From: Candidatus Sabulitectum sp.
GTDB taxonomy: Bacteria; Fermentibacterota; Fermentibacteria; Fermentibacterales; JCC-6
DNA: 64,000 nt
Direction: 5' to 3'
NCBI GenBank assembly: GCA_023145375.1
Contig: JAGLDY010000017.1
Location: forward strand, 1-64,000
The translations under genes were made by a program, and so were the position numbers. The notes under the pieces are model-generated. The model was given only the letters and a program-made list of their open reading frames with translations, was not told the origin of the DNA and made no database searches. Positions 36,931 to 47,914 of the stretch are shown one piece after another (the stretch's first letter is position 1; each line of letters begins with the position of its first letter).

Positions 36931-36997
36931 AAACAAAGCTAAGATGTATATTTCTCCTTCACAGGTTTTTTTTACATGTTGAAGGGAAGAATATCCT

Positions 36998-37174
36998 TTG
37001 AAAACCAGTTGCCCCTGCCCGAACACTTCCTGCAGATGGTACGGAAACTGTGCAGAATGCAGAGAGTTTCACAAACGGACAAGATCACGTACATACTGTG
37101 ACAGGATAAGCGGATCAGTGCGAAGAGGTTCATCAGGAATAAATCTGATGGACTATGCCGCATGTGCCGGTTGA
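36998..37174 (+). CDS. Cys-rich small reading frame upstream of and in frame with selD
   Basis: From a TTG at 36998 the frame reads KTSCPCPNTSCRWYGNCAEC, REFHKRTRSRTYCDR and on to the UGA at 37172. The pattern CxCxxxxC-x5-CxxC...YC resembles small Cys-rich proteins of the kind CPxxxCxxHGNCxECxxxH...YC found in other anaerobes, which probably bind metal. No stop separates it from the SelD frame. If the UGA is read as stop it is a 58-residue protein; if read as selenocysteine it could be an N-terminal extension of SelD. GAAGGGA lies 11 bases upstream of the TTG. No ATG is available, so translation is not certain. Confidence 0.55.
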   Translation: MKTSCPCPNTSCRWYGNCAECREFHKRTRSRTYCDRISGSVRRGSSGINLMDYAACAG

Positions 37175-38185
37175 GTAGGTAAAATGGCTCCCGGCAGGTT
37201 GTCGGGAATACTTGAGAAGCTCCCCAGTGTGCCCAGCCCGGATCTTATAGTTGGAATGGATACAATGGACGATGCAGGGGTTTACAGAATTAACGACACC
37301 ACAGCCCTGGTTCAGACGGTGGACTTCTTCTCTCCGGTAGTGGGCGATCCCAGAACCTTTGGAAGAATTGCAGCTGCTAATTCCATGTCAGACATATGGG
37401 CCATGGGTGGCAGCGCTCTCACAGCCATGAATCTCCTCTGCTTCCCCGGCGGTAAGCTTGAAATAGAGGTAGTGGAAGAGATAATGACAGGTTCCAGCGA
37501 AAAACTTGTTGAAGCAGGCGTGGTACTTGTGGGAGGTCATACTGCCGAGCAGGATGAGGTTCTTTTTGGCCTCAGTGTCACCGGCACTATCCATCCCGAT
37601 AAAGCAAGGACAAATTCAAATGCAAGGGTTGGAGACATACTTATTCTCACAAAGCGTATCGGTTCCGGCATTCTGGCTACAGCCAACAAAGCAAATCCTC
37701 TCAGGTCAGAAATAATGGGACCTATGATAGCTGCCATGGAAAGATTGAATATGTACGCCTCAGATGTACTTAACGACTACGATGTAAGTGCCATGACGGA
37801 CATAACCGGATTTGGTCTGCTGGGACACTCGCTTGCATTTGCAAGATCGGCGGATGTAACACTTGAATTCAATGTGGAAAAAATACCTCTGTTCACTGGT
37901 GTCATGGAATATGTTGATGAATTCTTCCCAGGGGGTTCTGCGCAGAACCGCAAGTATGTTGGTGAGAATGCATACTTTGACCCTGAGATCAGCGGAAAGA
38001 TGGCAGATATTCTCTTTGACGCCCAGACATCCGGGGGACTCTTTTTTTCAGTGAGAGCCGATCAGGCGGAAGAAGTGGTTACTGCTCTCAAAGAATGCGG
38101 CGATGAAAGCACGGCGATAATAGGTCGGGTAACAGAGTACAAAGCTATCGGTCAAGATCAACCCCGGCTTGTGCTTATTCCCTGA
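37118..38185 (+). CDS. selD: Selenide, water dikinase SelD, itself a selenoprotein (in-frame UGA at 37172)
   Basis: SelD makes selenophosphate from selenide and ATP for Sec-tRNA and selenouridine synthesis. The ATG at 37184 gives a protein that starts at KMAPGRL and so lacks the catalytic Cys/Sec and most of the N-terminal strand. Reading further upstream in the same frame gives GINLMDYAACAG-U-VGKMAPGRL, which lines up residue for residue with the E. coli IRLTQYSHGAG-C-GCK motif, with UGA at the catalytic position and the essential Lys three codons later. A start at GTG 37118 places Sec at residue 19. The rest (MDDAGVY, GRIAAANSMSDIWAMGG, GHTAEQDEV, MTDITGFGLLGH, DAQTSGGL) is complete. The start codon is not certain, since the frame stays open to 36983. 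Confidence 0.88.
37189..37207 (+). promoter_or_regulatory. Candidate bacterial SECIS hairpin in selD
   Basis: TCCCG (37189-37193) pairs with CGGGA (37203-37207) around a 9-base loop GCAGGTTGT. The stem begins 14 bases after the UGA (37172-37174), and the loop lies 19 to 28 bases after it, within the range known for SelB-binding hairpins. The loop contains AGGU, as in the E. coli formate dehydrogenase element. It lies in the coding sequence, as bacterial SECIS elements do. Confidence 0.6.
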
Positions 38186-46915: not shown

Positions 46916-47914
46916 TCAGTATTTGATGAGTTTCTCCGATTGACGAATTCCTTCACTGTTAGTAAAAATCGCCAGATAGAGGCCTCTTCCCGCAGTATAA
47001 CTTCCTGAGTCCCAGATCATGGAATCGGTGAACTCAACTGCATAGATTACTCTTCCACAGGTATCAAAGATTTCAACTTGCCATGCACCACACGCATTTG
47101 CGGAGAAACCAACGGTGCTCCTGAATGGATTACACAGAATCTCTATACCAGGCAGGGAGGGATCTACAGGGGTGCTTGTGTTTCCGATGTCCGATATTTC
47201 AGTAATCCTATATAGTTGATCTGTGGCAGTATTGCTGACCCAGATCTTATCAGACTCTACAGCAACGCCTCGCACCTCCCCTCCAATTCCGGATGCAGCG
47301 GGAATTCCCGTGAGAAACGAACCGGAACCCTGTTGGTAACACATCACTGGCGAGGTGGCGTTGTCAGTTGCCATCCAGACATTACCTCCCAATAGGGCAA
47401 TATCAAATCCGTCATCACTGCCTGAGTATTCATCTATATATTCAGTCTGATTTCCGAACTGTGTTCCATTGAAGTCATATTTTTCACAGCTCTCAAATCC
47501 AGCAAAAGTACTGCTGGAATAGAGATTATCTTCACTCCACCCGAGTCCCGTCGCCGACGGGACATACATCTCTCAACAGAGTTCGTCGAAGTTCTGATAG
47601 ACACCGGATGTGGAATACCAGTAAACCTCGCTGCTTTGAGCTATGCTGAAGAAACTTCCAAACAGATTACCGTTGTAGTAGGTCAGTCCGCCTGGGCTGA
47701 AGTCTTCAGTGCCTGCGAAAAGGAAACTGCTTTCTACCTGGCCTGATACTGGATCAACACCGTAGCACATTGATGATCCAGAGTCCAGGCACCAGAGTAA
47801 CCCTTCACCAAATGCCAGGCCTGTTATGTTTCCTGCCGGTGCATTCAGAGTGCGGTCAATCTGAAATCCCAGGGCAATAACAGCTATTAGCGGAATACAT
47901 ACAAGAGCTCTCAT
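46916..47914 (-). CDS. Secreted beta-propeller protein with in-frame UGA and sorting tail
   Basis: Two pieces in the same frame, 47914-47573 and 47572-46916, make one 333-codon gene interrupted by a single TGA (47575-47573). The first part has a signal peptide (MRALVCIPLIAVIALG) and propeller blades such as NITGLAFGEGLLWCLDS and GGLTYYNGNLFGSFF. The second continues with SATGLGWSEDNLYSSST and ends in a sorting tail (NPFRSTVGF, VEIFDTCGRVIYAVEF, GLYLAIFTNSEG...KLIKY). The codon before the UGA is Cys. Either this is a recent nonsense mutation or the UGA is decoded as selenocysteine. A perfect hairpin follows 9 bases after it. Confidence 0.75.
47545..47563 (-). promoter_or_regulatory. Perfect hairpin just after the in-frame UGA
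   Basis: On the minus strand GTCCCGTC-GGC-GACGGGAC forms an 8-bp perfect stem with a 3-base loop. It begins 9 bases after the UGA at 47575-47573. Position and size are compatible with a bacterial SECIS, though the loop is smaller than that of known elements unless the upper two pairs open. Confidence 0.4.

Follow-up and report, generated by a model that had tools for sequence, protein, structure and literature searches.

We wanted to establish whether the selD gene in a 64,000-nucleotide stretch of DNA (the window) encodes a selenophosphate synthetase with selenocysteine (Sec) as its catalytic residue. Contig C55, which contains the window, belongs to a 2.6-Mb metagenome-assembled genome (92% complete), the closest named relatives of which are Candidatus Sabulitectum and other Fermentibacterota. 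The question arose from an initial annotation that placed an in-frame UGA at the catalytic position of SelD (selenide, water dikinase) and predicted that standard gene finders would mis-annotate the gene. Mechanical ORF calling does misplace the start and misread the Sec codon here, and it yields a truncated frame that begins at an ATG and lacks the catalytic residue, as the initial annotation had noted. Reading through the TGA gives the peptide ..INLMDYAACAG-U-VGKMAPGRL.., and the gapless match to E. coli that had been claimed for it was reproduced by alignment with E. coli SelD (3u0o), in which AG-U-VGK lies against ..YSHGAG-C17-GCK20.. with the UGA at the position of Cys-17. The lysine equivalent to Lys-20 and the other active-site residues are retained. 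Among 34 aligned proteins, the peptide is conserved on both sides of the TGA, and Gly-58, Sec-59 (shown as Cys), and Lys-62 (G-U-x-x-K) are invariant. When 42 genomes of the order (G000-G041) were searched, 46 of 48 SelD copies, spread over 36 Fermentibacterota genomes, were found to hold exactly one in-frame TGA; the two copies with no TGA (G039:C20 and G037:C160) are both second SelD copies. The initial annotation had regarded relatives that begin at KMAPG with neither Sec nor Cys upstream as a sign against a selenoprotein, and there is none among the close relatives. Further, the protein scores 349.6 bits against the SelD equivalog TIGR00476 (curated cut-off, 125), and the AlphaFold model of the SelD body matches the E. 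coli and Aquifex SelD structures with TM scores of 0.87-0.92 by target length. Overall, alignment and conservation support the proposal that selD is a selenoprotein gene, and its product would be an active enzyme.

The start of the gene had been placed at a GTG (37118), which did not hold up: upstream of the GTG, the first in-frame stop lies at 36980, and the sole start codon that could serve before a conserved Cys-rich stretch is the TTG listed in Table 1, which is preceded by a Shine-Dalgarno-like sequence. The same TTG start is present in all eight Sabulitectum copies that were read, and in genus g5 an ATG occupies the corresponding site, directly after a stop. With this start, the protein comprises 395 residues, with Sec at position 59. 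We consider it very probable, from the features of the sequence, that the gene encodes a selenophosphate synthetase that starts at TTG 36998, carries Sec-59 at the UGA and a fused DUF6485-type domain, and is one of two paralogs.

Table 1. Positions of the features discussed in the text. Single numbers and ranges with two dots refer to the window; L and C designate other loci and contigs.
Feature	Position	Strand	Basis
selD-A, full gene (395 aa + stop, TTG start, predicted Sec59)	36998..38185	+	open frame, kept start, TIGR00476, AlphaFold model
Shine-Dalgarno-like AAGGGAAG, 8 nt before TTG	36982..36989	+	read in sequence
N-terminal Cys-rich domain, DUF6485-like (CxC, C, GxCxxC, H, C)	37001..37117	+	conservation, profile match, purifying selection
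Catalytic UGA, predicted to be read as Sec	37172..37174	+	alignment to E. coli C17, conservation in relatives
Truncated ORF from mechanical calling (333 aa, ATG, without Sec)	37184..38185	+	ORF calling
Bacterial SECIS-type hairpin, 8 bp, loop GGU (arms 37189-37196 and 37200-37207; loop GGT 37197-37199, within AGGTT)	37189..37207	+	covariation, synonymous-codon test, per-sequence folds
SecP2 selenoprotein candidate (apparent signal peptide, predicted beta-propeller, T9SS-like tail, NFDELC-U-EMYVP)	46919..47914	-	TGA in relatives, paralog alignment
Proposed Sec UGA of SecP2	47573..47575	-	8-bp hairpin GTCCCGTC-GGC-GACGGGAC follows
SecP1, own genome	L174:1784-2413, L238:2578-3258, L239:19530-20000, L240:355-954, L199:5226-5429, L277:14693		
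SecP1, other loci	L022:5101-5709; L023, L102, L104		
SecP1, Cys form	L099:5540-6229		
SecP3, two FG-GAP repeat proteins	L214:8593-9822 (C113), L230:968-2302 (C53)		own contigs

The upstream extension amounts to 40 residues, and the six cysteines and one histidine within its first ~37 residues are invariant across 23 sequences. Between Sabulitectum species, its pS (0.34-0.96) and pN (0.07-0.19) are comparable with those of the SelD body, with the linker relaxed, and this pattern indicates that the domain is translated and constrained. The spacing C-x-C-x(3,4)-C-x3-G-x-C-x2-C-x3-H-x8-C is common to the domain and DUF6485 (PF20095), and hhalign matched the profile of the domain to DUF6485 with a probability of 96.5% (E 8.1e-10). 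Further, the SelD-domain profile (A3) and PF20095 pick out the same standalone genes (e.g. G013:C13, G021:C5, G026:C40, and G083:C10). The Pfam gathering score of DUF6485 was not reached by single sequences of the domain or in a scan of its own genome. Judged by profile and spacing, the domain is homologous to DUF6485, and we file it as a homologue rather than as a Pfam member. Integrin_B_tail, Somatomedin_B, and Sina_ZnF, which also appeared as weak Pfam matches of single sequences, were rejected as meaningless. A search of PDB sequences with the profile of the domain gave no match (best E 0.63), its AlphaFold model is of low confidence (pLDDT about 47-73), and the open-access literature searched contains no described function for DUF6485. 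From the Cys/His set, we infer that the domain would bind a metal, probably zinc, or a sulfur/selenium group, which suggests metal binding or a sulfur/selenium relay as its role.

The UGA lies just past this complete small domain, which has free-standing relatives, and the gene might accordingly give two products, a free 58-residue DUF6485-like peptide at low selenium and full SelD when selenium is present. PMC4513850 describes UGA recoding as partial (30-40% in vivo) and dependent on the selenium supply, which would suit such a switch. The switch would be compatible with a Sec-containing SelD and would come in addition to it; however, the active site of SelD dictates where the UGA lies in any case. 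We regard the switch as unlikely; it would require the 58-residue product to be a stable peptide that is put to use.

If translation simply terminated at the UGA, the locus would encode a small Cys-rich protein ending at 37172 and a truncated SelD beginning at ATG 37184. This is exactly the split that mechanical ORF calling yields, and the upstream domain does resemble a standalone family, but the SelD so produced would have no catalytic residue, and the TGA and the open frame across it are retained in 46 copies, with conserved peptide on either side. The sequence downstream of the UGA also speaks against an ordinary stop. The hairpin with AGGU in its loop that the initial annotation had put 14 bases downstream is located there, and it covaries across relatives: among 32 sequences, four of the eight pairs are changed on both sides, double-sided changes occupy 46 cells compared with 16.6 ± 3.2 after shuffling, and 93% of the cells are paired, which falls to 19-48% when the partner is slid by 1-3 columns. 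Of the synonymous recodings that preserve the peptide, 0.8% fold as well as the native hairpin, which beats the other 99.2%, and 11 of 13 sequences subjected to this test fall below 2.5%. The bacterial SECIS model places the apical loop about 16-37 nt past the UGA, with a G within the first two bases of the loop. The selD hairpin agrees with this, and in the sequences of the lineage that were read the hairpin begins ~14 nt past the TGA; its loop is GGU or GGC in most of them, at nt 23-25.

The initial annotation had also reasoned that a UGA-containing selD implies Sec-decoding machinery outside the window and had suggested a search for it. When the own genome was searched, all three components were found: contig C99 carries selB (308 bits, 629 aa) and selA (440 bits, 460 aa), which share a few bases, and the tRNA-Sec, whose anticodon is TCA (UCA), lies at a contig end (C106:53-149; 70 bits compared with a gathering score of 47). 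Because these genomes are metagenome-assembled and the three genes are on other contigs, the link between them and selD rests on binning. With the machinery in the genome and a covarying hairpin behind the codon, we consider it highly improbable that the UGA is an ordinary stop. An altered genetic code, in which UGA specifies another amino acid, would likewise keep the frame open, but its probability is close to nil, as TGA terminates selD itself (38183) and the selD of several relatives, tRNA-Sec and SelB exist, and E. coli SelD has its catalytic Cys at this position. For a selD that encodes Sec-59, SelB would use the adjacent downstream hairpin to insert Sec at UGA 37172, and translation from TTG 36998 would yield an enzyme with a fused 40-residue DUF6485-type Cys-rich domain.

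A second SelD, ~50% identical to selD-A, is encoded in G000 (C56:6857-7861; L086:3825-5033) and has its own TGA, hairpin, and fused Cys-rich N-terminal domain. Both types of SelD are present in seven genomes of the genus, including the own genome, and they form separate supported clades inside the lineage in a SelD tree. Because the N-terminal domain is found on both types, the fusion most likely predates the duplication. The DUF6485-like domain is fused to Sec-SelD throughout this lineage. A third Sec-SelD, which is unfused, occurs in G013, G020, and G027. We also note three variants elsewhere. Tandem Sec-SelDs are found at L090:386 (G036:C329), the first of which is devoid of the Cys cluster and keeps a long N-terminal extension; a Cys-SelD at L100 (G042:C74) is preceded by 414 in-frame open codons and is possibly another type of fusion; and a DUF6485-like-SelD fusion with Sec, 54% identical, is filed under Planctomycetota (L024; Phycisphaerae MAG24, JAEIOG010000038.1), reflecting either transfer or misbinning.

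As to the use of selenium in this genome, a search for other selenium uses gave no match for ybbB and only a weak match, below the cut-off, for YqeB. Formate dehydrogenase is among the common selenoproteins; in this clade its gene lacks a TGA. The search for GrdB returned zero matches anywhere, controls included, and is given no weight. Given the results for ybbB, YqeB, and formate dehydrogenase, we scanned about 1.49 Mb of the 2.6-Mb genome for selenium consumers, defined by a TGA that is flanked on either side by coding signal and accompanied by a hairpin. An all-against-all comparison of the TGAs gave mostly wrong-frame noise. Filtering for hairpin, coding score, and a nearby Cys left seven hits: a SelD plus six that could plausibly be secreted selenoproteins. 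The scan yielded three families, SecP1, SecP2, and SecP3, all with apparent signal peptides as judged by eye. For single SecP genes, the hairpin statistics are weaker than those of selD, with 0.3-26% of recodings folding as well.

One SecP2 gene lies in the window on the strand opposite to selD, where the mechanical ORF (46916-47569) covers its C-terminal part only. We searched 45 genomes (33 Fermentibacterota and 12 others) for SecP2, taking matches with E below 1e-31 as strong: all 94 strong matches hold an in-frame TGA, strong matches occur in all 33 Fermentibacterota genomes, and none was found in the 12 others. Weaker or partial matches often have no TGA. In an alignment of the three copies from the own genome, the Cys and Sec columns are invariant and the TGA falls at the Cys-Sec motif. 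The hairpin of the window copy beats 97.7% of synonymous recodings, and its T9SS tail is just under the cut-off (E 1.1e-4). The fold model is weak (pLDDT 66), with mostly propellers as the best PDB matches, and no Pfam or NCBIfam model corresponds to the SecP2 core. We consider this protein a likely consumer of the SelD product. The initial annotation had overlooked this second candidate selenoprotein gene in the window, as well as the N-terminal domain and the second Sec-SelD.

SecP1 proteins are of about 200 residues and mostly carry CxxU (PFCGS-U-YxSLRYQ), with CxU and CU as variants, and at least six copies are present in the scanned part of the genome. SecP1, for which Pfam and NCBIfam give no match, adjoins selD in L022, and further copies in L023, L102, and L104 are separated from a selD by no more than about 2 kb. 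A Cys form in G039 has no corresponding hairpin, and the existence of this homolog supports the Sec reading of SecP1. Both SecP3 proteins have T9SS-like tails and in-frame TGAs that would give Sec-Cys at matching places, with a hairpin after each. Such tails are found on several SecP2 and SecP3 copies. In the open-access literature, we found nothing relevant on secreted or propeller selenoproteins in bacteria, nor on Sabulitectum or on Fermentibacter with selenium.

Taken together, the two Sec-SelD paralogs would supply selenophosphate for Sec-tRNA, the consumers of which appear to include secreted selenoproteins, and the N-terminal domain might help to pass selenium to the active site or to dock a partner. 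A wider proposal, which we put forward tentatively and rate at somewhat less than even, is that Fermentibacterota have an extracellular selenoproteome of multicopy secreted Cys-Sec, CxxU, and Sec-Cys proteins, with the two domain-fused Sec-SelDs as its dedicated supply and the domain as a selenium- or metal-handling module. The secreted selenoproteins are a more surprising lead than SelD itself: if true, members of an uncultured phylum would export Sec to their cell surface in families absent from Pfam and NCBIfam, which would be a large addition.

Finally, we compared the gene with known systems. The initial annotation was right to treat Sec-type SelD as a known kind, and Sec-type genes account for 19% of selD in one prokaryotic reference set (PMC4561486). 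The window gene shares with Sec-type SelD/SPS (TIGR00476) the catalytic Sec at the E. coli Cys-17 site, the downstream hairpin, the fold, and the motifs, but differs in its fused DUF6485-like N-terminal domain and in the presence of two diverged Sec copies in one genome. The SelD fusions in print, with NADH dehydrogenase-like or NifS-like proteins, likewise have the added domain N-terminal to SelD, but there the added domains are enzymes and all but one of the fusions (Geobacter sp. FRC-32) involve Cys-SelD (PMC4561486), whereas here a 40-residue Cys cluster is joined to Sec-SelD. DUF6485 in turn is a standalone protein of ~65 residues with an additional conserved C-terminal half, whereas the window domain is fused and below the Pfam threshold; the fusion to SelD gives DUF6485 a functional context. 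The cellular route of selenium to SelD is an open question (PMC13188914), and a Cys cluster that stays fused to Sec-SelD across an entire lineage offers a concrete candidate for a module that serves in delivery or docking. Sec-SelD is already known; what is new is the DUF6485-like fusion together with the paired Sec paralogs.
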